Positions 3,828 to 21,296 of a DNA stretch of 64,000 bases are shown one piece after another (the first letter of the stretch is position 1; each line of letters begins with the position of its first letter). The stretch lies in NCBI RefSeq assembly GCF_900116555.1, contig NZ_FPAT01000005.1:124001-188000 (forward strand), in the 5' to 3' direction. The translations under genes and the position numbers were made by a program. This DNA is from Actinopolyspora lacussalsi subsp. righensis. Its GTDB lineage: Bacteria; Actinomycetota; Actinomycetes; Mycobacteriales; Pseudonocardiaceae. The notes below the pieces were generated by a model. The model worked only from the letters and a program-made list of their open reading frames with translations, ran no database searches and was not told the origin of the DNA.

Positions 3828-4949
3828 ATGACGCGACGTTCTTTCCCGCCCTACCGGGCCGACCACGTGGGCAGCCTGCTGCGCCCCTCGTACCTGCACT
3901 CGGCACGCGAGAAGTTCGCGGCGGGCGAGCTGTCCGCCGAGGCGCTGCGCGAAACCGAGGATCGCGCGGTGCGCGAGGTGGTGGCCATGCAGGAGGACAT
4001 CGGGCTTTCCACCGCGACCGACGGTGAGTTCCGCCGCTCCACGTGGCACATGGACTTCATCTACAAGTTGGACGGCATCAACGCCAGCGACTCCACGATG
4101 TCCGTGCGGTTCCACAACGAAGCGGGCGACATCGAGTTCGCTCCCTCCGCCACCCGGATCGACGGGAGGATCCGGCTCGGGGAACCGATCTTCGGCGAGG
4201 ACTTCGCATACCTGGCCAGTCAGGTCAGCACCGCCACCCCCAAGCTGACGATGCCCTCGCCGAGCATGGTCCACTACCGGGGCGGCCCCGCGGCGATCAG
4301 TCCGGAGGTGTACCCGGACATCGAGCGGTTCTGGGACGATCTCTCGGCCGCCTACGCCGACCAGATCCGGGCCATGGGCGCCAGGGGCTGCAAGTACCTC
4401 CAGCTCGACGACACCAGTCTGGCCTACCTCAACGATCCGGCCCAACGCGCCCAGCTGGCCGAGCGCGGCGACGACGCCGAACACCAGCACCTGCGCAACA
4501 TCAAGCAGATGAACGCGGCTCTCGCGGCGCGTCCGTCCGACATGGCGGTGACCACGCACATGTGCCGGGGCAACTTCCGTTCCTCGTGGGTGGCCGAGGG
4601 CGGCTACGAGTTCGTCGCCGAGGCGGTGTTCAACGAGCTCGACGTGGACGGTTTCTTCCTGGAGTTCGACGACGAACGTTCGGGAGGCTTCGCCCCACTT
4701 CGCTTCGTCCCCGACGACAAGGTGGTCGTACTCGGACTGGTCACCACCAAACGCGGCGAGTTGGAGTCCAAGGACGCGCTGAAGCGGCGGATCGAGGAGG
4801 CCACTCGCTACATCGACATCGACCAGCTCTGCCTCTCGCCGCAGTGCGGATTCGCCTCGACCGAGGAGGGCAACGCGCTGGACATCGAACAGCAGGCGGC
4901 GAAGCTGCGGCTGATCGTCGAAACCGCCCGTGAGGTGTGGGGCGACTGA
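3828..4949 (+). CDS. Stand-alone MetE C-domain-like methyltransferase
   Basis: 373-residue protein of the cobalamin-independent methionine synthase II family (YxjG/YxjH-like), holding only the catalytic (beta/alpha)8 barrel that in full-length MetE is the C-terminal half. Zinc-site residues are visible: H and C in TTHMCRGN (about residue 245), the acidic FFLEFDDER strand, and the late cysteine in LCLSPQCGFAS. Such short proteins transfer a methyl group to homocysteine or a related thiol, or cleave methylthio compounds; the methyl donor is not established. No Shine-Dalgarno sequence is seen; TACTGT ends eight bases before the ATG, so translation may be leaderless. Divergent from an IclR regulator. 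It could supply methionine from methyl groups released by the C1 island 5 kb downstream, which is inference. Confidence 0.85.
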   Translation: MTRRSFPPYRADHVGSLLRPSYLHSAREKFAAGELSAEALRETEDRAVREVVAMQEDIGLSTATDGEFRRSTWHMDFIYKLDGINASDSTMSVRFHNEAGDIEFAPSATRIDGRIRLGEPIFGEDFAYLASQVSTATPKLTMPSPSMVHYRGGPAAISPEVYPDIERFWDDLSAAYADQIRAMGARGCKYLQLDDTSLAYLNDPAQRAQLAERGDDAEHQHLRNIKQMNAALAARPSDMAVTTHMCRGNFRSSWVAEGGYEFVAEAVFNELDVDGFFLEFDDERSGGFAPLRFVPDDKVVVLGLVTTKRGELESKDALKRRIEEATRYIDIDQLCLSPQCGFASTEEGNALDIEQQAAKLRLIVETAREVWGD

Positions 4950-7609: not shown

Positions 7610-8401
7610 TCAGGTTTCGAGATACCCGAGCTGGGCCGAGAGCTCCTTGGAAGCCACCGTCATCGCGTCGACGAGCTCACGCATCCTTCTGCGGGAGAAT
7701 CGGTAGGACGGCCCGGAAGCACTCAGCGCGGCGATGACACCGCCGTTGTGGTTGTAAACGGCGACCGCCGCCGCGTTCAGCCCCAGTTCGAGTTCCTCGT
7801 AGCTTGTCGCGTAACCATCGCGTTCGATGGCCTGGAACTCCTTGCGGAGCTCCTCGGAATCGGTGATGGTTCGCGCCGTGTAGCGCTGCAGTTCCTCACC
7901 GAGCAGATCCTCCCGGTCCTCGTTCGGGGCGTGCGCGAACAGCACCTTGCCGCTCGAAGTGGCATGCAGCGGTGTCCGCTGCCCCACCCAGTTGTGCGCG
8001 GTGACGGAGGCCGTGCCGCGCGCCTGGCTGATGTTGATCGCCACGTCGTGATCCCGGATGGCGATGTTGACGGTCTCGCCCAGCTCGGCGGCGAGCGAGT
8101 CACAGTACGGTGCGCCGAGGCGTGGCAGGTCCATCCGCTCGGTGGCGGCTCCGGCGAGCCGGACCACTCCGAAGCCGATGACGTACTTTCCCCTGTCCTT
8201 GAGCTGTTCCACCAGGCCGCGTGTTTCCAACACACTGACCAGCCTCGACGCGGTGGACTTGTGCACGCCCAGTTCCCCGGCGATCTCGGTTATGCCAACC
8301 TCGCCGTTGCGTGCCACGAGCTCCAGGATCGTCACGGCACGGTCCACCGACTGGACCAACGCCCCCGATCCCCTGCCTCGTGTGTCCGCTGATTCACTCA
8401 C
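7610..8401 (-). CDS. IclR-family regulator next to the sarcosine oxidase operon
   Basis: 263-residue IclR regulator: N-terminal winged helix (VGITEIAGELGVHKSTASRLVSVL, about residues 35-58) and C-terminal ligand-binding domain containing VNIAIRDHDVAINISQARG and TPLHATSSGKVLFAH. It lies downstream of soxBDAG on the same strand, separated by 336 bp that hold its own promoter. An imperfect palindrome in that promoter (8500-8516) resembles sites in front of the flavoprotein gene at 14957, so it is the best candidate for the shared regulator of the C1 island. Activator or repressor role and ligand (dimethylglycine, sarcosine or betaine would be logical) are inference. Confidence 0.9.
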   Translation of the reverse strand: MSESADTRGRGSGALVQSVDRAVTILELVARNGEVGITEIAGELGVHKSTASRLVSVLETRGLVEQLKDRGKYVIGFGVVRLAGAATERMDLPRLGAPYCDSLAAELGETVNIAIRDHDVAINISQARGTASVTAHNWVGQRTPLHATSSGKVLFAHAPNEDREDLLGEELQRYTARTITDSEELRKEFQAIERDGYATSYEELELGLNAAAVAVYNHNGGVIAALSASGPSYRFSRRRMRELVDAMTVASKELSAQLGYLET

Positions 8402-8499
8402 GACTCAACCGTATCCGTCCGGGGACAATTGCCGGAACCAACCGTCCTCGTCGGTCCACCGCCCGACTTTCCCGGCAGTCGCCCGACAAACCGCGCGCG

Positions 8500-8516
8500 G
8501 TTCCGTTATACGCAAC
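8500..8516. promoter_or_regulatory. Candidate IclR operator in its own promoter
   Basis: GTTCCGT-TAT-ACGCAAC, a 17-bp inverted repeat with six of seven arm positions matching, lies about 100 bp upstream of the IclR start at 8401, in the 336-bp space (8402-8737) between iclR and soxG. Twelve of its 17 positions are identical to a 17-mer at 14909-14925. Apart from this and a locally AT-richer stretch around it, nothing else is seen in the gap. Confidence 0.5.
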
Positions 8517-8737
8517 ATAGCGCTCGCCCTGTGGCGAACCCGGCGGCACCGGCGAGTTCACCGGCTGCGACACCACCATGCGGCCGGGCCCGCTTCCACC
8601 TCGGAATCGGCCCTACCTCGTGTTTACAGTATCGCAGACCGTAACAGCCCGGGAAGCCCGCGAATCGCCCGGACGACTACCGAGAGCTATCGGACTCGGC
8701 GAAATCGGCGGGAAGCGAACACTCCGGGTCACTGCCG

Positions 8738-9373
8738 TCAACCGTCGAGGAACTCGGCCATGGCGTCCAACAGCAGGTCCGCGAGGTACTCGGCGAAGGA
8801 ACAGCGCACCATGACGCGGTAGCCGGGTTCGTGGTCCAGCTGCCACAGCACCACGACGACCCGTCCCAGCAGGGTCTGTGCGCAGTCACCGGGCCCGAAC
8901 GCACGTGGGTGCAGATCGACCGAGCACAACTTCTCCAGCACCTCACGGGCCATCGGCCCGGAAAGACGCAGTGTGGTGCGATTGGCCGAGACGTCCACCA
9001 CGGAGCCGGAACCACCCCGCTGTGCGTCCCGGACGGTACGCAGCAGACTTTCGGCACGCCCGTCCGGTGCCACGATCAACGACTCGTCGGGGCCCAACCA
9101 CAGCACCGCGTCGTGCTCGTCACCGGTGACCCTGTTGGCCGCGGGCAGCGGGAGCCCCAATGTCTCGGCCACCGAGGCGGCGGAGGAACCGCCCGGCGGG
9201 GTCCGGAGGTCGAGCTGCGTGAGGAACGGTTCCTCGCGCAACCGAACTCCGCGAGCACCGGACGCGCTGCGACGTTCGAACTCGGCGGCACGGTGTTCCA
9301 GCGGACTGTGCCGCGGCGCCGTGCCGACATCGGTCGCGGCGGTTTCGGATTCAACCTTGTGCGGGACCGTCAC
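8738..9373 (-). CDS. soxG: Sarcosine oxidase gamma subunit
   Basis: 211-residue gamma subunit of heterotetrameric sarcosine oxidase, last gene of soxBDAG. It is a GcvT-like small subunit that packs against SoxA/SoxB; family blocks include TQLDLRTPPG, DEHDAVLWLGPDESLIVAP, SVVDVSANRTTLRLSGPMAREVLEKLCSVDLHP and the cysteine- and tyrosine-containing C-terminal strands. The start is placed at GTG 9373, preceded by GGAAGGAG at the right distance, so it overlaps the end of soxA by 23 bp; this implies translational coupling. The frame extends further upstream to 9430 inside soxA but without similarity. Confidence 0.88.
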   Translation of the reverse strand: MTVPHKVESETAATDVGTAPRHSPLEHRAAEFERRSASGARGVRLREEPFLTQLDLRTPPGGSSAASVAETLGLPLPAANRVTGDEHDAVLWLGPDESLIVAPDGRAESLLRTVRDAQRGGSGSVVDVSANRTTLRLSGPMAREVLEKLCSVDLHPRAFGPGDCAQTLLGRVVVVLWQLDHEPGYRVMVRCSFAEYLADLLLDAMAEFLDG

Positions 9374-12257
9374 GTCGGACTCCTTCCGGGTCGTAGAACA
9401 CGGGGCTGGTGATCTCCACCTCGACGTCACGACCGTCGAGCGGAACGCACACCACGTCTCCGAGGCGTTGCTGTCCCCGGCTGATCAGACCGAGCGCGAA
9501 GGTTCGTTCCAGAGCGGCACTGTGGTAACTCGAGGTGACGTGTCCCAGCATCGGCACGGGAGGTTGCCTCGACACGTCGGGCTCGACCAGGTGGGACCCC
9601 TCCGGCAGCAGTGTCGTGGTGTCGGTGGGCAACAGCCCGACCAGCTGTTTGCGGTCCTCGCGCACCAGGTCGGGACGGCTCAGCGAACGCTTGCCGATGA
9701 AGTCCTTCTGCTTGGAGACGGCCCAGTCCATTCCCAGGTCCACCGGAGTGACCGTTCCGTCGGTGTCCTGCCCGACGATCACGAATCCCTTCTCGGCGCG
9801 CAGCACGTGCATCGTCTCGGTTCCGTAAGGGGTGATGCCCAGATCGGATCCGGCCGTCATGGTGGCTTCCCACAGCGCCTGTCCGTACCAGCGGGGGACG
9901 TTGACCTCGAAGGCGAGCTCCCCCGAGAACGAGACCCGGGAGATCCTGGCGGGAACCCCACCGGTGAGTACCGTCTCGTGGAACCGCATGAACCCGAAGG
10001 AATCGGCCGACACGTCGAGGTCCGGGGCGAGTCGTCCCACCACCGTGCGGGAGTCCGGGCCGACCACCGCGACGGCCGCCCACTGCTCGGTGACCGAGGT
10101 GCAGTAGACGTCCAGTTCGGGCCACTCGGTCTGCAACCACTCCTCGAGCCAGTCCAGCACCTTCGCCGCACCACCGGTGGTGGTGCTCATCAGGTAGCGG
10201 TCCTCGGCCAACCGCATCGAGACGCCGTCGTCGAGCACCATCCCGTCCGCACCGCACATCATCCCGTACCGGGCCTTGCCGACCGCCAGCTTCGCGAACC
10301 CGTTGGTGTAGATCCGGTCGAGGAACACCGGCGCGTCCGGCCCCACGATCTCGATGCGCCCGAGCGTGCTGACGTCCTGGACAGCCACTCCGGTCCGCGC
10401 GGCGGCGCATTCGCGCAGCACGGCCGCGTGCATGTCCTCGTCACCGCGCGGGTAGTAACGGGCACGTTTCCACTGGCCCACGTCCTCGAAGACCGCGCCC
10501 GCCTCGACGTGCTGGCGGTGCATCGGTGTGGTGCGCACCGGATCGTAGAGTTCCCCCCGGGTGCGTCCGGCGAACAGCGCGAGCGGCACCGGCGTGTAGG
10601 GCGGGCGGAAGGTGGTGGTTCCCACCTCACCGGGGGAGTTCGCCGAGAGAATCTCCGCCAGGACCCCGACCGCGTTGACACCGGAGCCCTTCCCCTGGTC
10701 CAACCCGGTCGAGATGGTGGTGTAGCGCTTGACGTGCTGCACCGAACGCATCCCGCTCTCGGTGGCGCGGTACATGTCGGCCACCGTGGCGTCGCGTTGC
10801 AGGTCCACGAAGTGCTCGGTGCAACGCTCTGGAGGGCGCGATTCGTCGGGAACCAGCCATACCGGCCGGGGCCTGCTGCCCTGGCGGTCACCGTCGACCT
10901 GCGGCACAGGAGGCGGGGCGGTGCGGAACCCGCTGAGCGTGGCGGCTTCCGCCCCGGCCGCGAATCCCTGCGCGAGACATCCAGCGAGATCGTAGGTCCC
11001 TCGTGCCGAGCCCACCACTTTCGCGGAACGCCCACCGGCCTGCCGCGGCACGAAGCCGGCCACCACGGGGTCCCAACGCACCGCTCCCCCGCTCTGGGCG
11101 AACAGCTGAACCGCCGGATTCCAGCCACCGCTGACCGCCAACAGGTCACAGGAGAACTCGCTGCTCCAGCCCGTGAGCGAACCGTCGGCATCGAGCCCAC
11201 GCACCCGCACACCGGATATCCGGTGCTGCCCGGTGGTGGCTACCACCGCCGCCGAGGTCACCACGTGGGCACCGGCGGCACGGACCTGTTCGACCAGCCG
11301 CGCGGACGGCTCGGGCCGGGTGTCCACGATGGCCGGAACACGGGCTCCCGCACCGAGCAGGTCGAGCGCGGTGCTGTACGCGCTGTCCGAAGTGGTGAAG
11401 ACGACGGCCTCACGGCCGGGCAGCACGGCGTAACGGTTGAGATAGGACCGGACCGCCGAGGCCAGCATCACGCCGGGGCGGTCGTTGTCGGCGAACACCA
11501 CGGGACGTTCGTGCGCTCCGGTGGCGAGCACCACCTGCTTCGCCCTGACGTGCCAGAGTCGCTGCCGACTCATCGAGGGGGGCGGGGCGGCCATGTGGTC
11601 CGTACGACTCTCGGCCACGAGTAGGTAGTTGTGGTCGTAGCACCCGAGTGCCGAGGAGCGGGTCAGCACCCGGACCTGTTCGTTCTCCGCGAGTTCGCGC
11701 GCGGCACGCCCGATCCACTCGGTCGCCGGATGTCCGGCGATGTCGGCCTGTCCGTCCAGCAGCATGCCGCCGAGCTCGCGGTGCTGGTCGACGAGGATCA
11801 CCCGAGCGCCACCCCGCGCGGCCGTCAGGCTCGCCGCTATCCCGGAGGGACCGGCTCCCACCACGACGACGTCGGTGTGCACGAACTTCTTGTCGTAACC
11901 GGCGGTGTCGCGCTGTTGGCTCAACCATCCGACACCGGACAGTGTCTCGGCACGCAGCCCTTCCCGGAGTTCGATCTCGGTGGCGGGCAGCATGGGTTCC
12001 GGACAGTCGCCGTCGAGCAGCTGCACCAGCGCGTTGGGTTCGGTGCAGTCGGCACTGAACACACCCCTCGGACGTCCCCGCTGGATCGAGGGGGCCACCT
12101 CGATGTCGCCGTGGGCCAGCATGGCCGAGGCCAACGTGTCGCCGGGCCTGCCGCGGATCTCACGTCCGTCCACGGTGGCGTTCAACGTGCGGGTGCGGTC
12201 GATACGCCCCGCGCGGACCGATGCGTTCACACGGTTGGGGTTCGACGAACTCGTCAT
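9351..12257 (-). CDS. soxA: Sarcosine oxidase alpha subunit
   Basis: 968-residue alpha subunit of heterotetrameric sarcosine oxidase, which oxidises sarcosine to glycine and H2O2 and passes the methyl carbon to tetrahydrofolate as 5,10-methylene-THF. Domains in order: N-terminal ferredoxin-fold-like segment (about 25-110, RTRTLNATVDGREIRGRPGDTLASAM), nucleotide-binding Rossmann modules beginning with VVVVGAGPSGIAAS (about 128-142, NAD site), and a C-terminal GcvT-like folate-binding module (from about 600, including SGELAFEVNVP and LGMDWAVSKQKDFIGKRSL). Full length for the family. Its ATG is five bases after the soxD stop. Confidence 0.95.
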   Translation of the reverse strand: MTSSSNPNRVNASVRAGRIDRTRTLNATVDGREIRGRPGDTLASAMLAHGDIEVAPSIQRGRPRGVFSADCTEPNALVQLLDGDCPEPMLPATEIELREGLRAETLSGVGWLSQQRDTAGYDKKFVHTDVVVVGAGPSGIAASLTAARGGARVILVDQHRELGGMLLDGQADIAGHPATEWIGRAARELAENEQVRVLTRSSALGCYDHNYLLVAESRTDHMAAPPPSMSRQRLWHVRAKQVVLATGAHERPVVFADNDRPGVMLASAVRSYLNRYAVLPGREAVVFTTSDSAYSTALDLLGAGARVPAIVDTRPEPSARLVEQVRAAGAHVVTSAAVVATTGQHRISGVRVRGLDADGSLTGWSSEFSCDLLAVSGGWNPAVQLFAQSGGAVRWDPVVAGFVPRQAGGRSAKVVGSARGTYDLAGCLAQGFAAGAEAATLSGFRTAPPPVPQVDGDRQGSRPRPVWLVPDESRPPERCTEHFVDLQRDATVADMYRATESGMRSVQHVKRYTTISTGLDQGKGSGVNAVGVLAEILSANSPGEVGTTTFRPPYTPVPLALFAGRTRGELYDPVRTTPMHRQHVEAGAVFEDVGQWKRARYYPRGDEDMHAAVLRECAAARTGVAVQDVSTLGRIEIVGPDAPVFLDRIYTNGFAKLAVGKARYGMMCGADGMVLDDGVSMRLAEDRYLMSTTTGGAAKVLDWLEEWLQTEWPELDVYCTSVTEQWAAVAVVGPDSRTVVGRLAPDLDVSADSFGFMRFHETVLTGGVPARISRVSFSGELAFEVNVPRWYGQALWEATMTAGSDLGITPYGTETMHVLRAEKGFVIVGQDTDGTVTPVDLGMDWAVSKQKDFIGKRSLSRPDLVREDRKQLVGLLPTDTTTLLPEGSHLVEPDVSRQPPVPMLGHVTSSYHSAALERTFALGLISRGQQRLGDVVCVPLDGRDVEVEITSPVFYDPEGVRRDGPAQG

Positions 12258-12261
12258 GGTG

Positions 12262-12531
12262 TTACCGACTTTCGCGACGTCGTGGAATGTCCGGCCTCAT
12301 CTCGTTGGTCGCGGTGTCGCGAACGACCGAGAACCAGCGGCGACAACCCGCCGTGTGCACCCAGCGCTCGTCGAACGAGCCCGATGGGTTCGCGCGAACG
12401 AACAGGTACTCGCCCCAAGTGGCGTCGTCGAGCTGGTGGGGATCGGCCGGGTAGTCGACATCGGCCTGTCCGCCGTAGCGGAACTCGGCCTCGTCGCGGT
12501 CACCACACCACGGGCATCGGACGAGGAGCAT
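12262..12531 (-). CDS. soxD: Sarcosine oxidase delta subunit
   Basis: 89-residue delta subunit with the zinc-binding signature CPWCGDRDEAEF at residues 6-17 and the distal HTAGCRRWF pair, which together supply three Cys and one His. Family blocks GEYLFVRANPSG and RWVHTAGCRRWF are intact. It lies 142 bp after soxB and just before soxA in the order B-D-A-G known from Corynebacterium and Pseudomonas. Confidence 0.94.
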   Translation of the reverse strand: MLLVRCPWCGDRDEAEFRYGGQADVDYPADPHQLDDATWGEYLFVRANPSGSFDERWVHTAGCRRWFSVVRDTATNEMRPDIPRRRESR

Positions 12532-12673
12532 CTACGGCCTCCTGTGGATGTCGTCGCGCAACGGACCGGGAATCCGCGGCGGAACTTGCTCGAGTGGCCG
12601 GAAGTCGGCACGGGAATCGGTGTCCCGCCTGGTGGGAACTGCTGGTGAACAGCGCATTCGAAGTCACCCCGCT

Positions 12674-13894
12674 TCAGTGGGCGACGGCGGCCGCGCCGTG
12701 TTCGTCTATGAGGGCTCCGCTGGTGAACCGCTCCATGCCGTAGGGCTCGTTGAGCGGATGGGGCTCCCCGGTGGCGATGGTGTGGGCGAACACCCAGCCC
12801 GCTCCCGGAGTCGCCTTGAAGCCGCCCGTCCCCCAGCCGCAGTTGACGAAGAGGTTCTCGTAGGGCGTGGGGCCGATGATCGGCGAGGCGTCCGGGGTCA
12901 CATCCACGGTGCCGGCCCAGGTACGCAGCAGATGCGCCCTGGCGAACACGGGGAACAGCTCCACTGCCGCCGCCAGCTGGTTCTCGATCACGTGCACCGA
13001 GCCTCGCTGCGCGTACCCGTTGTGGGTGTCTATGCCGGCGCCGAGCACGAGCTCGCCCTTGTGGGCCTGGCTGGTGTAGACGTGCACGTGGTTGGACATG
13101 ACCACGCAGGGATGCACGGGTTCGAGGATCTCGGTGGCCATGGCCTGCAGCGGGTGGCTCTGCAACGGAAGCCGGAGACCGAGGGTGTCGGTGAGCAGCG
13201 TCGTCCTTCCCGCCGCTGCCAGTCCCACCCGACCGGCTCCGATGTCACCGTTGTCGGTTCGTACCCCGATCACCCGGTCCCCGTCGGTGACGAAGCCGGT
13301 GACCTCGCGGTTCTGGATGAAGTCCACTCCCATCTCGTCACACTTCCGTGCCAGCCCCCACGCGACGAGGTCGTGCTTGGCTATTCCCGCTCTGCGCTGG
13401 TACGTGGCGCCGAGCACCGGATAGCGCAGATTCGACGTGTTGAGGATGGGGCAGATCTCGGAGATCTCGTCGGGGGTGAGCCACTCGGCGTCCACCCCGT
13501 TGAGCTCGTTGGCGAACGCTCTCCTGCGCGCGTCCCGGACCTCCTGCTCGGTGTGGGCGAGATTGAGCACGCCGCGCTGGCTGAAGTGGAACTCGTAGTC
13601 GAGTTCCTCGTGGAGTTCCTCCCAGAGCCGCAACGCGTGGTCGTAGAGCGCTGCGCTGGCGTCGAGCAGGTAGTTCGAACGGATGATCGTGGTGTTTCGG
13701 GCCATGTTGCCGCCCGCGAGCCACCCGCGCTCGACAACGGCGATGTCGGTGATGCCGTGGTTGCGCGCCAGGTAGTAAGCGGTGGCCAGTCCGTGCCCGC
13801 CGGCCCCGACGATCACCACGTCGTAGTTGCGTTTCGGCTCCGGGTTGCGCCACAGCCGCTCCGGGGGAGCTGGGGTGTTGCCGTCAGCGACCAA
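12674..13894 (-). CDS. soxB: Sarcosine oxidase beta subunit
   Basis: 406-residue FAD/FMN beta subunit, the catalytic flavoprotein of heterotetrameric sarcosine oxidase. The dinucleotide motif [18 protein letters not shown] starts near residue 26. His174 in [14 protein letters not shown] matches the histidine that carries covalent FMN in corynebacterial SoxB. The C-terminal block [29 protein letters not shown] is typical. The start is a TTG with AAGGAG seven bases upstream. First gene of the sox operon and divergent from a GntR gene; the 185-bp gap holds a palindrome. Confidence 0.95.
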
Positions 13895-14009
13895 CGGTGG
13901 CTCCTTGCTGGCAGTTTGCTGGTGACCGGCGATGTCGGTGGATCGGATCGGTCCGGCTGTCGGAGGGGTCCCGCGGCGCGGCCGAACCGCACGAAGAGCA
14001 CTGGGCGAC

Positions 14010-14024
14010 CGATGACGATCATCG
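14010..14024. promoter_or_regulatory. Palindrome between soxB and gntR, GntR operator candidate
   Basis: CGATGA-CGA-TCATCG, perfect 6-bp arms around three bases, sits in the divergent soxB-gntR space (13895-14079), about 55 bp before the GTG of gntR. FCD-type GntR proteins usually bind such short palindromes beside their own gene. A second weak element, CTGA-AATG-TCAG, lies at 14046-14057. Confidence 0.45.
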
Positions 14025-14079
14025 TTACATATGAGTGAACAACAACTGAAATGTCAGTCTGTGAGGTAGGCTACGAGTC

Positions 14080-14763
14080 GTGTCGGAAGCGGTCAATTCC
14101 CCATCGGGTGACAGTTCGCCGCAGCGGTTCCCCCAGGAGCGCCCCTCACAGGCCGAGCGCGCCTACCTGACCCTGCGGGAGGAGATCCTGTCGCTGCGGC
14201 TGGCCCCCGGGTCCCCCGTGCGGGAAGAAGCACTGACCAGCGAACTGGGCCTCGGACGCACCCCCTTCCGGGAGGCCGTGAAACGCCTCGCCGCCGAGTC
14301 CCTGGTGGCGATCTACCCCCGCAGGGGCACCTTCGTCACCGAGGTCAACATCACCGATCACGCCCTGATCGCCGACGTGCGGCGGAGACTGGAGGGGCAC
14401 GCGGCCAGGAGGGCGGCCGAACGGTCCACCGAGGCGGAGCGGGGCGAGCTCGCGGAACTGGTGGAACTGGTGGAGCGCGTCCCCGAAGAGCCGGAGTCGG
14501 TCATGGGCGTGGACGCCCGGGTGCACCGCACGCTGTACCGCTGCACCCACAACGGCTACCTGGAAAGCACTCTTGGGCAGTACTACAACCTCGCACTGCG
14601 CATCTGGGGACTTTTCTTCGATCGATTGAGTGACGTCACGAGCCATGTCACCGAACACACCGAGTTACTGAAAGCCGTCATCGACGCCGATGCGGACCGG
14701 GCCGACCGCGTCGCGGTCGACCACGTCGATCACTTCGAGAACTCGATTCGCCAAGTGCTGTAA
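14080..14763 (+). CDS. GntR/FCD-family regulator between sox operon and C1 genes
   Basis: 227-residue GntR regulator of the FadR/VanR type. The winged helix covers about residues 25-90 (ALTSELGLGRTPFREAVKRLAAESLV), followed by an all-helical FCD effector domain. In that domain D-x3-H in VDARVHRTLYR and the later ITEHTELLKAVID-like segment (TEHTELLKAVIDAD) suggest a metal-dependent carboxylate site. It starts with GTG eight bases after TAGGCT, with no ribosome site, so it is probably leaderless. Divergent from soxB and 193 bp upstream of the flavoprotein gene. A role in sensing an amino acid such as glycine or sarcosine is inference. Confidence 0.9.
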   Translation: MSEAVNSPSGDSSPQRFPQERPSQAERAYLTLREEILSLRLAPGSPVREEALTSELGLGRTPFREAVKRLAAESLVAIYPRRGTFVTEVNITDHALIADVRRRLEGHAARRAAERSTEAERGELAELVELVERVPEEPESVMGVDARVHRTLYRCTHNGYLESTLGQYYNLALRIWGLFFDRLSDVTSHVTEHTELLKAVIDADADRADRVAVDHVDHFENSIRQVL

Positions 14764-14854
14764 CGACATCTTCGCCCCACGCTGGCGAACTCACCGATTC
14801 CCCAGCACACCCCCGCGATCTTGAGCCGGCAAGTCATTCTCTTGTCGCCCGAAT

Positions 14855-14925
14855 GTGTGTCTTGACGCACACAGAGCATCGGGCGCACTGTTGCGAGTGA
14901 CGCAGATAGTTGTTCTAGACGCAAC
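14855..14925. promoter_or_regulatory. Repeated ACGCA half-sites upstream of the C1 operon
   Basis: Three ACGCA elements occur at 14865, 14900 and 14919, all on the + strand. The 17-mers at 14890-14906 (GTTGCGAGTGACGCAGA) and 14909-14925 (GTTGTTCTAGACGCAAC) lie 19 bp apart. The second shares 12 of 17 positions with the element in the IclR promoter at 8500-8516. The flavoprotein ATG is 31 bp downstream. Tandem sites two helical turns apart are usual for IclR-type control. Confidence 0.45.
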
Positions 14926-14956
14926 ACCGGTTCCCGATATTCGGCAGGGGGCGGCA

Positions 14957-17449
14957 ATGGCTTCGGTGCTCGATTCGAGTGCACGCATCGTGATAATCGG
15001 CGCTGGAATCGTCGGTTGCAGTACCGCCTACCACCTCGCCCAACGCGGGGTGACGGACGTACTCGTGGTCGAGCAGGGGCCACTCTTCGCCACCGGTGGC
15101 TCGTCCTCGCACGCGCCGGGGCTCGTCTTCCAGACCAGCGGCTCGCAGACGATGACCCAGCTGGCGCGCTACACGGTGGAGCGGTTCACTGCCGCGAGCG
15201 TGGACGGCCGCCCCTGCTTCCACCAGGTAGGGGGAATCGAGGTCGCCACCTCACGGGAGCGGTGGGACGAGCTCCACCGCAAACACGGACTCGCCACCGC
15301 CTGGGGCGTGGACGGCACGCTGCTCACACCGGAAGAGGTCCACGAGCGGATCCCGCAGGTGGATCCGAGCCGGATTTACGGCGGGTTCCACGTGCCCACC
15401 GACGGAGTCGCCAAGCCGGTACGCGCCGCCGAGGCCATGGCTCGGGAGGCACAGCGTCTCGGCGTCCGGTTCGCCGACCACACCGCTGTCACCGGCTTCG
15501 ACACGGCCGACGGCCGGGTGAACGCGGTGCACACGGACCGGGGAACGGTCACGGCAGAGCGGGTGCTGTGCTGCGCGGGCATCTGGGGGCCGCGAATCGG
15601 CGAGATGGCGGGCGTGTCCATCCCGGTGCAGCCGGTCGCCCACCAGTACGCGGTCACCGAGCCGGTCGAAGGACTGGTCGCCGGTGACGAGGAGGTCGAA
15701 CAACCGATTCTGCGCCAGCAGGACAGCTCGCTGTACTTCCGGCAGATCCACGACCGCTACGGAATCGGCTCCTACCAGCACCGGGTGATCCCCGTGTCCT
15801 GCGACGAGCTGGCCCCGACCAAGGCCGCGGGAGACGGCGTCGAGGCACCGCCGGAGGGCGGCGGCTGGAAGGGCATGTCCTCGGTTCACCCGTTCACACC
15901 CGAGGACTTCGCCAAGCCGTTCGCGGAGGCGCGCGAGCTGATCCCCGCGTTGCGGCGCACCGAGGTGGCCGAGGGTATGAACGGGATCTTCCTGTTCACC
16001 GCCGACGGCGCTCCGGTGCTGGGGCCGACCCGCGAGGTGGACAACTTCTGGGTCGCCGAGGCGGTGTGGATCACGCACTCCGCGGGCGTGGGGTTGGCGG
16101 TGGCCGAGTGGATGACCGAGGGTGAGCCCAGCATCGATCTGCGCTCGGCGGACGTGCGGCGGTTCGAGAACTTCGCGCACAGCGACAGCTACGTGTCCGA
16201 GCGCAGCGCGCAGACCTTCCGCGAGGTCTACGACATCATCCACCCCCAGCAGCCCCCCGAACACCCCAGGCCACTGCGCACCAGCCCGTTCTACCCGCGC
16301 CAGCAGGAACTCGGGGCGGTGTTCCTGGAGGCCAGCGGATGGGAACGGCCGCACTGGTTCGAGGCCAACGCATCCCTCGTGGACGGCCGGGAGACAGCCG
16401 CCCCCGGCCGGTGGGCCGGCCGTTACTGGTCCCCGATCATCGCGGCCGAGCACCAGGTCACCCGTGAACGGGTCGCCATGTACGACATGACCTCGCTGTG
16501 TCGAGCGGAGGTCAGCGGTCCCGGCGCGCTGGAGCTGCTACAGCGGTTGACGACCAATCAACTGGACCGTGCTCCCGGGTACGTGACCTACACGCTGATG
16601 CTCGATCACAGGGGTGGTATCCGCTCGGACATCACCGTGGCGCGGCTTTCGGAGAACACCTTCCAGGTCGGCTGCAACGGACAGCGGGACATCGCGTGGA
16701 TGAGCGACCACGCGGACGAGTCGACCACGGTACGTGACATCACCGGCGGTACGTGCTGCATCGGCCTGTGGGGACCGTACGCGCGTGCGGTGCTGCAGTC
16801 ACTGACCGAGACCGACGTCTCGCACGAGCAGTTCCGGTTCTTCCGGGCCAAGAGGTTGTTCGTTCGGGAGGTTCCGGTCACGGCGCTGCGACTGTCCTAC
16901 GTCGGTGAGCTCGGGTGGGAGCTCTACACCACGGCCGACTTCGGACTACGGCTCTGGGACCTGCTGGCGGGTGCGGGCGCCGAGTACGGCGTCATCGCCG
17001 GCGGCAGGGGCGCTTTCAGCAACATGAGGCTGGAAAAGGGATATCGGGCCTGGGGCGGTGACATGTGGAGCGTGCACACTCCCGACGAGGCGGGGCTGGC
17101 CTTCGCGGTGAAGCCGGACAAGGGCCAGTTCATCGGTCGTGACGCGCTGCTTCGCCGCCGTGAGTCCCCGATACGACGAAAGTTGTGCTGCCTGTCGATC
17201 GACGACGGCACGGTAGTGATGGGTTCCGAGCCGGTCTTCGCCGATTCCCAGGACCGGCGAGCCAGCGGTTTCACCACGAGTACGGGGTACGGCCACAGCC
17301 TCGGCCTCAGCCTCGCCTACGCGTGGTTGCCCTCGGAACTGTCCGAAGCGGGTACCTCCGTCGAGGTGGCCTACTTCGGAGAACGGCATCCCGCCACGGT
17401 GATGTCCGATCCGGTGTTCGATCCCGAGATGAAACGAATGCGCTGCTGA
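14957..17449 (+). CDS. Dimethylglycine/sarcosine dehydrogenase-like flavoprotein with GcvT domain
   Basis: 830-residue two-part enzyme of the DMGDH/SARDH/PDPR family. The N-terminal DAO-type FAD module opens with IVIIGAGIVGCSTAYHLA (residues 11-28). His52 in SSSHAPGLVFQ aligns with the histidine that binds FAD covalently in dimethylglycine dehydrogenase. The C-terminal half (from about residue 430) is a GcvT-like folate module with TNQLDRAPGYVTYTLMLDHRGG, SYVGELGWELY and RLEKGYRAWGGDMW. Expected reaction: oxidative N-demethylation of dimethylglycine or sarcosine with transfer of the carbon to tetrahydrofolate. The ATG at 14957 follows AGGGGGCGG; the upstream in-frame extension is regulatory DNA. 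Because soxBDAG already covers sarcosine, dimethylglycine is the likelier substrate. Confidence 0.85.
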   Translation: MASVLDSSARIVIIGAGIVGCSTAYHLAQRGVTDVLVVEQGPLFATGGSSSHAPGLVFQTSGSQTMTQLARYTVERFTAASVDGRPCFHQVGGIEVATSRERWDELHRKHGLATAWGVDGTLLTPEEVHERIPQVDPSRIYGGFHVPTDGVAKPVRAAEAMAREAQRLGVRFADHTAVTGFDTADGRVNAVHTDRGTVTAERVLCCAGIWGPRIGEMAGVSIPVQPVAHQYAVTEPVEGLVAGDEEVEQPILRQQDSSLYFRQIHDRYGIGSYQHRVIPVSCDELAPTKAAGDGVEAPPEGGGWKGMSSVHPFTPEDFAKPFAEARELIPALRRTEVAEGMNGIFLFTADGAPVLGPTREVDNFWVAEAVWITHSAGVGLAVAEWMTEGEPSIDLRSADVRRFENFAHSDSYVSERSAQTFREVYDIIHPQQPPEHPRPLRTSPFYPRQQELGAVFLEASGWERPHWFEANASLVDGRETAAPGRWAGRYWSPIIAAEHQVTRERVAMYDMTSLCRAEVSGPGALELLQRLTTNQLDRAPGYVTYTLMLDHRGGIRSDITVARLSENTFQVGCNGQRDIAWMSDHADESTTVRDITGGTCCIGLWGPYARAVLQSLTETDVSHEQFRFFRAKRLFVREVPVTALRLSYVGELGWELYTTADFGLRLWDLLAGAGAEYGVIAGGRGAFSNMRLEKGYRAWGGDMWSVHTPDEAGLAFAVKPDKGQFIGRDALLRRRESPIRRKLCCLSIDDGTVVMGSEPVFADSQDRRASGFTTSTGYGHSLGLSLAYAWLPSELSEAGTSVEVAYFGERHPATVMSDPVFDPEMKRMRC

Positions 17450-17548
17450 GAGCGCATCGAGCTCCATCCCCCCGACAACCGGGCCGTTGACCGCAGCGCG
17501 GTGGACGGTCCGGCGGAATCGCCCCATCAACCCCGTGAGGAGTCCCCC

Positions 17549-18760
17549 ATGAGCATCAACCCGACCCCCGCGATCCTGCAGTACCCCCGTCTCCGCAAGT
17601 CCCCCTTCTTCTACGCTTCGCGCAGGCACGGGGTGGGGATGTACAGCGTGTACAACCACACCTATCACGCCAGGCACTACGGTGACCCGGTAGCCGAGTA
17701 CTGGCACCTGCTCAACGGTGTGACGCTGTGGGACGTCGGTGTCGAGCGTCAGGTGGAGATCACCGGCCCGGACGCCTTCGAGTTCACCAACATGCTGGTC
17801 CCCCGTGATCTGAACAAGTGCCGGGTCGGGCAGTGCAAGTACGTGTTCATCACCGCGGAGGACGGCGGCATCATCAACGATCCCGTGCTGCTGCGCCTCG
17901 GGGAGAACCACTTCTGGCTGTCGCTGGCCGACAGCGACGTGCTGCTGTGGGCCAAGGGGCTCGCCTACAGCCTGGGGATGAACGTCCAGATCCGTGAACC
18001 CGACGTGGGTCCGGTCCAGGTACAGGGGCCGAAGTCCCGTGACGTCATGGTGGACCTGTTCGGGGAGTCCATCCAGGAGATTCCGTACTACTACGCCGTT
18101 GACCGGCAGCTGGACGGTATGGACGTGATCGTCTCACGTACCGGCTACACCGCCGAGCTCGGCTACGAGATCTACCTGCACAACGCCAGCCAGGACGGTG
18201 TGCGGCTCTGGGAGAAGATCTGGGAGGCCGGTCGGCCCTACGACATGCGGGTGATCGGTCCCTGCCACATCCGGCGGATCGAGGCGGGCATCCTGTCCTG
18301 GGGCTGCGACATCACCTACGACACGAATCCGTTCGAGGTCGGTTACGGGTTCGAGGCGACCTGGATGGTCGATCTCAACCAGGAGGCGGACTTCATCGGG
18401 AAATCCGCGCTGACCCGGATCTACGACGAGGGGATCACCCGCAAGCTGGTGGGTGTGGCCATGGGCGGCCCCGAAGTGGGCAGCTTCAACGACGGCTCGA
18501 TGATCGACACCTTCCCGGTTCGGGATCCCAACGGACTGCGTATCGGAGACGTCACCTCCGCCTGCCACTCGCCGAGGCTGGACCGCAACATCGGTTACGC
18601 GATGGTGCCGATCAGCTACCACGAGGTGGGGACACCACTCGTGGTGGAGACCCAGCACGGCCCGCAGGAGGCCGAGGTGGTGGAAAAGCCGTTCCTCGAC
18701 CCGAAGAAGCAGATCCCCAAGCAGTTCGAACGGCAGGAAGAAGCGGCGGTGTCGAAATGA
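17549..18760 (+). CDS. DmdA-like / GcvT-family folate-dependent demethylase
   Basis: 403-residue single-module aminomethyltransferase-fold protein. Its central sequence (GVGMYSVYNHTY, YWHLLNGVTLWDVGVERQVEITGPDA, PRDLNKCRVGQCKY, GGIINDPVLLRL, FWLSLADSDVLLWAKGLAY, EPDVGPVQVQGPKS) follows the dimethylsulfoniopropionate demethylase (DmdA) branch rather than glycine-cleavage GcvT. DmdA moves a methyl group to tetrahydrofolate, giving 5-methyl-THF. The protein is a little longer than classical DmdA (about 370) at both ends. GAGGAG precedes the ATG at 17549, and the last codons overlap the MetF-like gene by 4 bp. The true methyl donor (DMSP, betaine, another onium or an O-methyl compound) cannot be told from sequence. 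Confidence 0.78.
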   Translation: MSINPTPAILQYPRLRKSPFFYASRRHGVGMYSVYNHTYHARHYGDPVAEYWHLLNGVTLWDVGVERQVEITGPDAFEFTNMLVPRDLNKCRVGQCKYVFITAEDGGIINDPVLLRLGENHFWLSLADSDVLLWAKGLAYSLGMNVQIREPDVGPVQVQGPKSRDVMVDLFGESIQEIPYYYAVDRQLDGMDVIVSRTGYTAELGYEIYLHNASQDGVRLWEKIWEAGRPYDMRVIGPCHIRRIEAGILSWGCDITYDTNPFEVGYGFEATWMVDLNQEADFIGKSALTRIYDEGITRKLVGVAMGGPEVGSFNDGSMIDTFPVRDPNGLRIGDVTSACHSPRLDRNIGYAMVPISYHEVGTPLVVETQHGPQEAEVVEKPFLDPKKQIPKQFERQEEAAVSK

Positions 18761-19602
18761 CCACGAACGCGCAACAACAGCTACAGCGTTACCTCCGCAA
18801 CGCCCGTTACGAGGTTCTGCCGCTGCGGGGGGTCGTCGAGCAGGTGCGGGAACTGCCCGCCGGGACGACGGTGACCGTGACGTCCTCGCCCGCCAAGGGG
18901 ACCGAAGCCACTCTGGACACCGCGGCACGGCTGCGTGACGAGGGCATGCACGTGGTCCCCCATCTGGCGGCACGACTGGTCCGGGACTCGGCTCATCTGA
19001 GCGATCTGCTCGCTCGGGTGAGCGACCTCGGTCTCACGGAGGTGTTCGTGATCGCCGGGGACGCCGAACGTCCGGCGGGCAGGTTCACCGACGCCCTCTC
19101 GTTACTGCGGGGCATGGAGGAGATCGGGACCAGGCCGTACCGACTCGGGATCACCGGGTATCCGGAGCAGCACGCCTTCATCCCGGATCGCATGACCATC
19201 CAGGCCACCGACGAGAAGGCACGTTACGCCGACTACATCGTCTCGCAGATCTGCTACGACCCGAACACGATCGCCTCGTGGGTCAAGAGCATGCGAGCCA
19301 GGGGCGTCGAACTGCCGGTCTACATCGGTGCGCCGGGATCGATCGACCCGAGCAAGCTGCTGCGGATCTCGATGAAGATCGGGCTGGGCCAGTCCATGCG
19401 TTTCCTGCGGAAACAGCACGGCGTGGTGACCAAGCTGTTGACCCGCTACACCCCGGAGAACGTGTTCGACGAGTTGTCGCCCTGTCTCGTGGATCCGGAC
19501 TACAACATCGCGGGTTGGCACCTGTTCACCTTCAACGAGATCAGCAAGACCCGGCAATGGGCCATCGAGATGGCCGACCGGCTGCAGGAGGTGCCCGCAT
19601 GA
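18757..19602 (+). CDS. Methylenetetrahydrofolate reductase-family (MetF-like) protein
   Basis: 281-residue FAD/TIM-barrel protein of the MTHFR family, translationally coupled (ATGA) to both neighbours. Recognisable blocks are VFVIAGDAERPAG (the conserved aspartate strand), the YPEQH segment, ARYADYIVSQICYD and LPVYIGAPGSIDPSKLLRISMKIGLG. The N-terminal strand reads TVTVTSSPAKGTEA, where E. coli MetF has FEFFPP with catalytic Glu28, so that glutamate seems to be absent. Beside a DmdA-like enzyme the logical role is oxidation of 5-methyl-THF to 5,10-methylene-THF; direction and cofactor are inference. Confidence 0.78.
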   Translation: MTTNAQQQLQRYLRNARYEVLPLRGVVEQVRELPAGTTVTVTSSPAKGTEATLDTAARLRDEGMHVVPHLAARLVRDSAHLSDLLARVSDLGLTEVFVIAGDAERPAGRFTDALSLLRGMEEIGTRPYRLGITGYPEQHAFIPDRMTIQATDEKARYADYIVSQICYDPNTIASWVKSMRARGVELPVYIGAPGSIDPSKLLRISMKIGLGQSMRFLRKQHGVVTKLLTRYTPENVFDELSPCLVDPDYNIAGWHLFTFNEISKTRQWAIEMADRLQEVPA

Positions 19603-21296
19603 ACATGCCGTCCGATCTGGACATCTCGCGGTCCTCACCACGCAAACCGCTGGAGGAGGTCGCCGCGGATCTTGGGCTGGCTCCCCACCTGCTGGAGCCC
19701 TACGGCAGGGACGTCGCCAAGGTCTCCCTGAGTGCCCTCGACGAGCTCGGTGAGCAGAACCGGGCCAAGTACATCCTGGTCTCGGCCATCACACCGACTC
19801 CGCTCGGCGAGGGTAAAACCACCACCACGGTCGGACTCGGCCAGGCACTGCATCACCTGGGAAAGCGATCGGCGATCGCGATCCGACAGCCGTCCATGGG
19901 TCCGACGTTTGGTATCAAGGGCGGCGCGGCGGGAGGTGGCTACAGCCAGGTGGTGCCCATGGAGGCACTGAACCTGCACCTGACCGGCGATATGCACGCC
20001 GTCACGGCCGCCAACAACATGCTGGCGGCGATGGTGGACAACCACATCCACAAGGGCAACGAACTCGGGCTGGATCCCCACCGGGTGACCTGGCGGCGGG
20101 TGGTCGACATCAACGACCGGGAGTTGCGCAACGTGGTGACCGGCCTGGGCGGCAGTGCCGACGGCACTCCGCACCAGACGGGTTTCGACATCACCGCGGC
20201 CAGCGAGGTGATGGCGGTGCTGGCACTGTCCAACTCGCTGCACGACATGCGTGAACGGCTGGGACGCATCGTCGTGGGCTACACCCACCAGGGGCAGCCG
20301 GTCACGGCGGAGCAGCTGGGTGCCGCCGGTGCGATGACGGTGATCATGCGGGAGGCGATCAAGCCCAACCTGATGCAGACCGTCGAGAACACACCGGTGC
20401 TGGTGCACGCGGGTCCGTTCGGCAACATCGCGCACGGCAACTCCTCCGTCGTGGCCGACCGCATCGCCAGCAGGTGTGCCGACTACGTGGTCACCGAGGC
20501 CGGTTTCGGTGCCGACATGGGGGCCGAACGGTTCTTCAACATCAAGTGCCGGACCTCCGGGTTGCGCCCGGACGCGGCGGTGCTGGTCGCCACCGTTCGG
20601 GCGTTGAAGGCGCACTCCGGGCGATTCCGCGTGGTGGCGGGCAAGGATCTTCCGGCGGAGATGCTCGACGAGAATCCGGAGGACGTGCTCACGGGGGCCG
20701 ACAACCTCCGCAAGCAGATCGAGAACCTGCGCATGCACGGTGTCTCACCCGTGGTGGCGGTGAACGCGTTCCCCACCGACCACCCCAGTGAGCACCAGGC
20801 GATCCGCGAGGTGGCCGAGAACGCGGGTGCCCGCGTGGCCATCAGCACCCATTTCACCGACGGTGGCAAGGGGGCGGTGGAACTGGCCGAAGCGGTCAGC
20901 GAGGCCGCCGAGGAACCCAGTCGATTCGAACTGCTCTACCCCGACTCCGCGGATCTGCGCACCAAGATCGAGACGGTCGCCACCAGGGTCTACGGCGCCG
21001 ACGGAGTTTCGTACACCCCCGCGGCGGAACGCGCGTTGCGCAGTTACACGGCCAACGGGTTCGATTCGCTGCCGGTGTGCATCGCCAAGACGCACCTGTC
21101 GCTGAGTTCCGATCCGAGCCTGTTGGGGGCTCCTACGGGATGGACGCTGCCGGTGCGTGAGATCCGGGCTTCGGTCGGTGCCGGATTCGTCTACCCCATC
21201 TGCGGCGACATGCGCACCATGCCGGGACTGAGTTCCCGGCCCGCCGCGGAGCGGATCGACATCGACGACCGCGGCGAGGTCGTCGGGCTGAGTTGA
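19599..21296 (+). CDS. fhs: Formate-tetrahydrofolate ligase
   Basis: 565-residue 10-formyl-THF synthetase, which interconverts formate + ATP + THF and 10-formyl-THF. Signatures: P-loop TPTPLGEGKTTTTVGLGQAL (about residues 65-84), PSMGPTFGIKGGAAGGGYSQVVPMEALNLHLTGD, FNIKCRTSGLRPDAAVLVATVRALK, and the C-terminal GFVYPICGDMRTMPGL. Full length for the family. It starts four bases before the end of the MetF-like gene. As last gene of the operon it could run in reverse, releasing formate and making ATP from methyl groups captured upstream. The FolD step that should link it to methylene-THF is not in this window. Confidence 0.95.
   Translation: MNMPSDLDISRSSPRKPLEEVAADLGLAPHLLEPYGRDVAKVSLSALDELGEQNRAKYILVSAITPTPLGEGKTTTTVGLGQALHHLGKRSAIAIRQPSMGPTFGIKGGAAGGGYSQVVPMEALNLHLTGDMHAVTAANNMLAAMVDNHIHKGNELGLDPHRVTWRRVVDINDRELRNVVTGLGGSADGTPHQTGFDITAASEVMAVLALSNSLHDMRERLGRIVVGYTHQGQPVTAEQLGAAGAMTVIMREAIKPNLMQTVENTPVLVHAGPFGNIAHGNSSVVADRIASRCADYVVTEAGFGADMGAERFFNIKCRTSGLRPDAAVLVATVRALKAHSGRFRVVAGKDLPAEMLDENPEDVLTGADNLRKQIENLRMHGVSPVVAVNAFPTDHPSEHQAIREVAENAGARVAISTHFTDGGKGAVELAEAVSEAAEEPSRFELLYPDSADLRTKIETVATRVYGADGVSYTPAAERALRSYTANGFDSLPVCIAKTHLSLSSDPSLLGAPTGWTLPVREIRASVGAGFVYPICGDMRTMPGLSSRPAAERIDIDDRGEVVGLS

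Follow-up and report, generated by a model that had tools for sequence, protein, structure and literature searches.

A DmdA-like protein as a candidate betaine:tetrahydrofolate methyltransferase in a demethylation locus of Actinopolyspora

Introduction

Three systems, GbcAB, Bhmt and MtgBCD, are discussed as routes to dimethylglycine in the available text of a 2025 PNAS paper (PMC12478193). The available text of a 2026 review (PMC13001107) describes a subfamily of methylenetetrahydrofolate reductase (MTHFR) that prefers the oxidation of 5-methyl-tetrahydrofolate (CH3-THF, where THF is tetrahydrofolate) and has co-evolved with a THF-dependent demethylase. Here we analyse a stretch of 64,000 nucleotides from Actinopolyspora lacussalsi subsp. 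righensis (contig NZ_FPAT01000005.1, positions 124,001 to 188,000; hereafter the window), which carries genes for sarcosine oxidase (soxBDAG), dimethylglycine oxidase (DMGO), a DmdA-like protein, a MetF-like protein and formate-THF ligase (fhs) between positions 7610 and 21296. Betaine is a common osmolyte, and the genus Actinopolyspora is halophilic.

The locus quite likely encodes one linear pathway, betaine to dimethylglycine to sarcosine to glycine, with the DmdA-like enzyme acting as the first betaine demethylase. A sequence-only reading of the same DNA had proposed that at least three compounds are demethylated here and that the first betaine demethylase is not encoded here. On both points the co-occurrence and neighbourhood data given below argue otherwise, for three demethylases in series on one compound and for the DmdA-like gene as the missing step. 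The protein would then probably be a single-protein, cobalamin- and oxygen-independent betaine:THF methyltransferase from the DmdA/GcvT family, a fourth solution to step one that changes places with a Rieske monooxygenase next to DMGO and is spread over Actinomycetota, Halomonadaceae, Rubrobacteraceae and one metagenome-assembled genome (MAG) of Thermomicrobium.

Association of the DmdA-like gene with dimethylglycine oxidase

The DmdA-like THF methyltransferase, our proposed betaine:THF methyltransferase on the basis of profile, structure, tree and context, is encoded on the plus strand at 17549-18760, with an alternative GTG start possible at 17501. Upstream on the same strand is the gene for DMGO (14957-17449). 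Its product has the domain architecture DAO + FAO_M + GCV_T + GCV_T_C and is identified as a dimethylglycine oxidase, with a phmmer score of 892 bits to the Arthrobacter enzyme 1pj5 compared to 402 bits to rat dimethylglycine dehydrogenase (DMGDH). This corrects in detail the label of DMGDH-like given by the sequence-only reading.

The host genome (99.94% complete) contains no match to the Rieske oxygenase alpha family PF00848, none to the MTTB family PF06253 of MttB and MtgB, and no stand-alone BHMT; its one S-methyl_trans match is inside a 1208-residue frame read as MetH. It has five BCCT matches, one of them partial. The presence of DMGO and Sox in a genome that lacks matches to Rieske alpha and MttB/MtgB and has no stand-alone BHMT speaks for betaine as the substrate.

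We surveyed 150 genomes of the same family, using thresholds of at least 63% identity for the DmdA-like orthologue, at least 62% for a Rieske gene like those adjoining DMGO, and E values up to 1e-100 for DMGO/DMGDH, for which up to six candidates per genome were scored and "copies" are the matches listed. The DmdA-like gene was found in 52 genomes, DMGO/DMGDH in 113 and the Rieske gene in 85, and all 52 DmdA-like carriers and all 85 Rieske carriers also have DMGO/DMGDH. The 113 genomes with DMGO/DMGDH comprise 23 with the DmdA-like gene only, 56 with the Rieske gene only, 29 with both and 5 with neither. Among the matches listed, DMGO/DMGDH is no more than 5 kb from the DmdA-like gene in 47 of the 52 carriers. 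In one other (G037) the DmdA-like gene is near a contig end and the DMGO match is partial, and two more (G024, G090) have DMGO at a place not among the matches listed. The carriers have 86 listed DMGO/DMGDH copies, of which 47 are within 10 kb of a DmdA-like gene and 33 within 20 kb of a Rieske gene; none is near both, and six are near neither.

Forty DMGO neighbourhoods (L073-L112) were then compared, 32 from genomes without a DmdA-like orthologue and eight (L103-L110) from genomes with one. The Rieske alpha domain family occurs in 19 of these, the ferredoxin-reductase family in 21, the GMC oxidoreductase family in 11 and the BCCT transporter family in five, which together are the set expected for choline and betaine. 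The DmdA-like and GbcA-type Rieske genes appear to swap at the same place beside DMGO, where "GbcA-type" is a label given from the neighbouring genes.

A wider survey covered 296 genomes of the class, with DmdA-like genes taken at E values of 1e-110 or lower and three DMGO candidates scored per genome. DMGO/DMGDH is present in 13 of 14 DmdA-like carriers, compared to 102 of 296 genomes overall (Fisher test, 5.6e-6, a value that overstates independence because the genomes and rows are related). The two genes are within approximately 3 kb of each other in 11 of the 14, and about 13.5 kb apart in another (G287). On context and co-occurrence, betaine is most likely the substrate.

Conservation of gene order

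The sequence-only reading had set conservation of gene order across actinobacterial genomes as its test beforehand, and the order passed it. We took 40 places with MetF matches together with wide flanks, hand-picked from the top and lower identity groups; nine of these (L061-L064, L067-L071) are other MetF paralogues and were excluded from the counts. In the close set, which consists of 23 relatives of the same family with MetF identity of at least 57% (L032-L054), the trio of DmdA-like, MetF and Fhs genes is retained in 23 of 23, with DMGO immediately upstream in 21, SoxB within view in 20 and GntR in 14. A second group of eight loci (L055-L060, L065, L066) has MetF at 43-46% and the DmdA-like protein at 64-66% identity. 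Here the DmdA-MetF-Fhs trio is followed by a different DMGDH in all eight, with a gene for electron transfer flavoprotein (ETF) adjoining in six. Between the two groups, the DmdA-like protein is clearly more conserved than either DMGO (39-42%) or MetF.

The same genes occur in several arrangements in a survey of 80 loci from named genomes. The order is DMGO-DmdA-MetF-Fhs in Saccharopolyspora and Actinopolyspora, DmdA-MetF-Fhs-DMGDH-ETF in Prauserella, Saccharomonospora and Phytoactinopolyspora, and BCCT-DMGO-DmdA-MetF in a Rubrobacteraceae MAG (L152), while in Halomonas DMGDH is divergent from the DmdA-like gene. In Nocardiopsis (L128) and Allosalinactinospora (L165) the order is DmdA-DMGO-SoxBDAG with no MetF within view; one further locus (L129) is of this type except for a PurU-like gene on the opposite strand in between. 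The link to DMGO is thus kept in three loci without MetF within view (L128, L165 and L109, whose genome G071 has no listed MetF match). Linkage to DMGO is more persistent than linkage to MetF, which argues for more than a shared folate pool, namely a product-substrate relation.

We note that a Halomonas locus (L142, 81-18033) has glutamine-synthetase-like genes and DAO-family flavoproteins around DmdA-like, MetF and DMGDH genes, which suggests a further amine pathway.

Family, tree and predicted structure of the DmdA-like protein

The protein is assigned to the GcvT/DmdA-fold THF methyltransferases by its Pfam GCV_T match (149.3 bits). Against the NCBIfam equivalog model for DmdA (NF009133) it scores 347.3 bits, under the cut-off of 410. 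It is 100% identical to its Actinopolyspora alba counterpart over 403 residues (390 columns in the tree alignment).

A tree of 108 rows was obtained by a quick IQ-TREE search, with support from the Shimodaira-Hasegawa-like approximate likelihood ratio test (SH-aLRT) only and no bootstrap. The window protein is in a clade of 77 rows (SH-aLRT 99), 64 of which have DMGO or DMGDH within view; two of its rows are haloarchaeal and of unsure placement, on a long branch, and excluding them the figures are 75 and 62. These neighbour calls need fixed bit scores, and broken or cut-off genes (as in L123) are scored absent. The DmdA proteins of loci of the dimethylsulfoniopropionate (DMSP) type, represented by only four rows (L199, L200, L201, L203), are outside the clade. 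Residues H40, T59, F100, H240 and W272 are among the positions that never vary over 62 of 62 clade rows yet carry another residue in each of the four DMSP-type rows; the dimethylglycine set used for this count excludes L117, L118, L194 and L177.

The AlphaFold (AF2) model of the protein has a predicted local distance difference test score (pLDDT) of 87.1. Its best fold match is Pelagibacter ubique DmdA (3tfh; Z 43.9, 1.8 Å over 362 residues, 36% identity), followed by DMGDH and T-protein structures. The closeness of the match to 3tfh makes it plausible that the protein transfers a methyl group directly to THF.

More distant homologues occur in a range of other settings. Two haloarchaeal plasmids (L117, 9182-20519; L118, 1-12294) carry a DmdA-like gene (39-40%) with MetF and two DMGDH-like flavoproteins of approximately 850 residues, L118 additionally with Fhs and FolD, and may hold the same pathway in Archaea. 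On a Lichenihabitans plasmid (L115, 9079-15170), a DmdA-like gene (48%) occurs with MetF, an FAD oxidoreductase, PurU and FolD, adjoining ABC transporters, a set that we read as a stand-alone demethylation module. In a gammaproteobacterial MAG (L194, 8397-11149) an MTTB-family gene adjoins the DmdA-like gene (55%), with DMGDH and ETF nearby. A Chloroflexi MAG (L177, 4960-15811) has a DmdA-like/DMGDH pair, after which come an aminotransferase, GntR, another DMGDH and the beginning of another DmdA-like gene. On Phaeobacter (L113, 11968-16046) and Loktanella (L114, 11971-16118) plasmids, a DmdA-like gene at about 51% is accompanied by an Lrp regulator, OsmC, enoyl-CoA hydratase and an AMP ligase. 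These DmdA-like genes differ from the dmdA of L199 and perhaps serve a further sulfonium or betaine pathway. A scan of ten neighbour proteins of relatives at 55-59% (from loci L166-L194) indicated no clear substrate.

Proposed pathway

In the pathway that we propose, betaine would lose one N-methyl group from its quaternary nitrogen to THF in a direct transfer by the DmdA-like protein, with dimethylglycine and 5-methyl-THF as products. For DMGO, Sox and Fhs we take the chemistry of their families: DMGO would convert dimethylglycine to sarcosine, and SoxBDAG sarcosine to glycine, each with formation of 5,10-methylene-THF. One betaine would then yield one CH3-THF and two CH2-THF, and from these formate and ATP. 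For clearing, the MetF-like enzyme would oxidise 5-methyl-THF to methylene-THF, FolD, presumably encoded elsewhere, would take this to 10-formyl-THF, and Fhs, probably running in reverse as the sequence-only reading had it, would release formate and ATP.

The metF-like gene, a proposed CH3-THF oxidase gene, is at 18757-19602 (plus). Its product matches Pfam MTHFR with 41.2 bits (cut-off 24) and reaches only 50 bits against TIGR00676, compared to 293.7. The best solved relative is a 5,10-MTHFR (7xg9, 122.6 bits), which we take to be the SYK-6 enzyme. Residues E19, D102 and Q164 are invariant in 10 of 10 aligned rows, and are presumably in the motifs that are catalytic in MTHFR. By analogy we propose that the protein runs as a CH3-THF oxidase. 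The suggestion of a THF-linked methyl dissimilation locus is supported: the order is conserved, the best solved relative of the MetF-like protein is 7xg9, and the available text of PMC13001107 treats an MTHFR subfamily that favours oxidation of CH3-THF.

Alternative readings

The DmdA-like protein could be a DMSP demethylase, in which case DMSP, dimethylglycine and sarcosine would all be processed by the locus through a common folate route. Its closest solved structure is indeed a DMSP demethylase, P. ubique DmdA, and on Roseobacter plasmids its homologues of some 51% identity have genes for an enoyl-CoA hydratase and an AMP ligase nearby, a setting like that of DMSP genes. The protein nevertheless falls below the NCBIfam DmdA cut-off, all four DmdA rows of DMSP-type loci are outside its clade and differ from it at the five fixed residues, and the best match in the host genome to Phaeobacter inhibens DmdD is only 31% identical. 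We scanned the neighbouring open reading frames and found no AMP ligase, acyl-CoA dehydrogenase or hydratase, although dmdB and dmdC were not searched genome-wide and this is a soft test, since DMSP-type loci vary too: dmdA has an AMP ligase, an acyl-CoA dehydrogenase and dmdD as neighbours in L199 and L201, the ligase only in L200, and none of these in L203. It is therefore the score against the DmdA model, the tree and the co-occurrence data that carry the case against DMSP, with the neighbour genes as a weaker test, and on the cut-off, the DmdD search and the tree we consider a DMSP demethylase improbable.

Another donor (proline betaine, carnitine, choline, trimethylamine N-oxide or other) is also unlikely. 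The DMGO and Sox genes would then be adjacent only by way of THF. Such versatility has parallels, as GcvT-type THF-dependent enzymes act on aromatic O-methyl and methylenedioxy groups according to the available text of PMC5547118, and that of PMC3160333 gives no known substrate for the DmdA-like/MetF pair SAR11_1265/1264. Against it, DMGO is retained in the loci with no MetF within view, and the sharing of one-carbon units does not by itself predict that 80 of the 86 DMGO copies listed should lie close to either the DmdA-like or the Rieske gene and none close to both. We also think it rather improbable that the MetF-like protein runs forward, so that the set supplies 5-methyl-THF for methionine instead of burning methyl groups. 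The protein does belong to the MTHFR family, and fhs can also run forward; but the same operon encodes a methyltransferase that would itself make 5-methyl-THF, and the ligM-metF-ligH operon, in the available text of PMC6888825, follows the same clearing logic as our proposal.

Several observations weigh against betaine demethylation by the DmdA-like protein. Besides the 3tfh match, the Roseobacter homologues, the neighbour-based label of the Rieske gene and the relatedness of the genomes, all given above, these are as follows. A neighbouring tree group of 14 relatives, from Gemmatimonadota, Deltaproteobacteria, ANGP1 and archaeal MAGs, has no dimethylglycine gene within view, and two Arthrobacter loci (L166, L167) have no DMGO within view. 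In the family survey, five genomes have DMGO but neither candidate (G031, G066, G104, G122, G148), 29 of the 52 carriers also hold the Rieske gene, so that both routes can coexist, and in two (G005, G069) the DmdA-like gene is not linked to DMGO. In the class survey the genes are unlinked in G396, and G257 has no DMGO match, in a genome that is 80% complete. We nevertheless favour the betaine pathway.

Organization and regulation of the locus

Gene content, order and spacing are as the sequence-only reading described them, and the gap between gntR and DMGO is exactly 193 bp (14764-14956). The DmdA-like, metF-like and fhs genes are joined by two exact 4-bp overlaps (18757-18760 and 19599-19602), as had also been noted. 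The fhs gene is at 19599-21296 (plus; NF010030, 826.4 bits, cut-off 652) and is the sole FTHFS match in the host genome. On the minus strand are soxB (12674-13894; TIGR01373, 589.6 bits, cut-off 529.45), soxD (12262-12531), soxA (9351-12257; TIGR01372, 1199.5 bits, cut-off 1164) and soxG (8738-9430, start uncertain). SoxG matches Pfam SoxG with 64.8 bits, above the Pfam cut-off, and TIGR01375 with 132.8 bits, under the cut-off of 143.95. SoxD, of 89 amino acids, is assigned from its position between soxA and soxB and its CPWCG motif, with no library scan. With the alpha and beta subunits above curated cut-offs and delta and gamma present, we identify a heterotetrameric sarcosine oxidase.

The locus has two regulator genes: gntR (14080-14763, plus), of the GntR/FCD type (Pfam GntR 58.1 and FCD 80.4 bits), and an IclR-family gene at the left end (iclR, 7610-8401, minus; Pfam IclR_C 144.9 bits), which the sequence-only reading had not named although its span starts at 7610. 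Relatives of iclR are within view in eight of the 23 close loci, many of those stretches stopping short of the iclR position. A second IclR-like stretch at 2799-3452 (minus) has 33% identity to iclR.

Upstream of DMGO there is a promoter-like element (14862-14925, plus), conserved across loci, which consists of TTGACG at 14862-14867 and two dyads, GTTGCGAGTGACGCA at 14890-14904 and GTTGTTCTAGACGCAAC at 14909-14925. The second dyad occurs a single time in each of 28 out of 38 loci that were scanned, with some genomes represented twice; in three loci that lack DMGO (L038, L039, L121) it stands ahead of the DmdA-like gene. It was not found, at up to two substitutions, in the other ten (L047-L049, L054, L109, L110, L128-L130, L165). 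In the window alone the dyad patterns are not rarer than chance (1 found and 0.47 expected; 9 found and 7.4 expected), and it is therefore the conservation across loci that provides the evidence.

A related, operator-like dyad, GTTGCGTATAACGGAAC, is found 115 nt ahead of the start of iclR (8500-8516, minus). Common control of the locus is suggested by the iclR gene together with the conserved element upstream of DMGO, and IclR is a likely candidate for the operon regulator. This is weakened by the restriction of the iclR-upstream dyad, at up to two substitutions of the programmed pattern, to the window and L119, and by its near-chance frequency in the window; by eye, a less strict pattern, GTTGC-n-GGAAC, can be made out in 12 of the 18 stretches inspected upstream of iclR, some genomes again being represented twice. 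We rejected GntR as the regulator of the operon dyads, as the dyad is also present in loci that have no GntR match (L044, L046, L051-L053). Upstream of gntR is a palindrome, ACTGAAATGTCAGT(CTG) (14045-14061, plus), which is present in eight of eight soxB-gntR stretches inspected and has one match in the window. A riboswitch in the conserved leader was also rejected: Rfam searches of 14700-15100 at E values up to 5, and of the whole window at gathering scores, gave no match, and the leader resembles a promoter with two dyads.

In five loci (L121, L038, L044, L046, L123) a ferredoxin-reductase-like gene is found near iclR, and upstream of iclR a reversed TTGACG + GTTGC pattern resembles the operon promoter by eye, perhaps indicating one regulon for both betaine routes. 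Approximately 10 kb from the operon, a gene at 3828-4949 (plus) encodes a stand-alone PF01717 domain (60.1 bits, 373 amino acids), the catalytic domain of cobalamin-independent methionine synthase, and resembles a "core MetE".

Comparison with known systems

Our literature search, which covered few subscription journals and is weak evidence of novelty, found no GcvT- or DmdA-type betaine demethylase among the papers listed. If the proposal is correct, it explains betaine use in bacteria without GbcAB, Bhmt and MtgBCD, by a route in which the first methyl group stays on folate instead of being released as formaldehyde and no B12 is needed. It also warns against counting genes annotated as "dmdA-like" or "aminomethyltransferase" among the DMSP genes.

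The window protein shares with DmdA (3tfh) the GcvT fold, THF as acceptor and a presumed redox-neutral methyl transfer, but is under the DmdA cut-off, stands apart in the tree and has dimethylglycine and sarcosine oxidases as neighbours. The operon resembles ligM-metF-ligH of Sphingobium SYK-6, in which genes for a THF methyltransferase, MetF and formyl-THF synthetase likewise form one operon with the same logic for clearing methyl-THF (available text of PMC6888825 and PMC13001107). LigM differs in that its substrates are aromatic methoxy groups, and within the GcvT family it is more remote (Z about 29). The pair SAR11_1265/SAR11_1264 is similar in that a DmdA-like gene adjoins metF, a likeness drawn from the description in the available text of PMC3160333 and not from sequence, although in SAR11 the betaine step is assigned to Bhmt.

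Among the routes to dimethylglycine, the GbcAB loci have the same proposed step, the same DMGO partner and the same bacterial family, but GbcAB is an unrelated protein, a Rieske oxygenase that yields formaldehyde. In MtgBCD the betaine methyl group also ends on THF, and a metF paralogue, metF2, is found downstream of mtgD (both comparisons from the available text of PMC12478193); MtgBCD, however, requires several proteins and cobalamin, and the host genome gave no match to PF06253, the family of MtgB. Relative to GbcAB, Bhmt and MtgBCD, the DmdA-like protein would thus be a known kind of enzyme with a new role.

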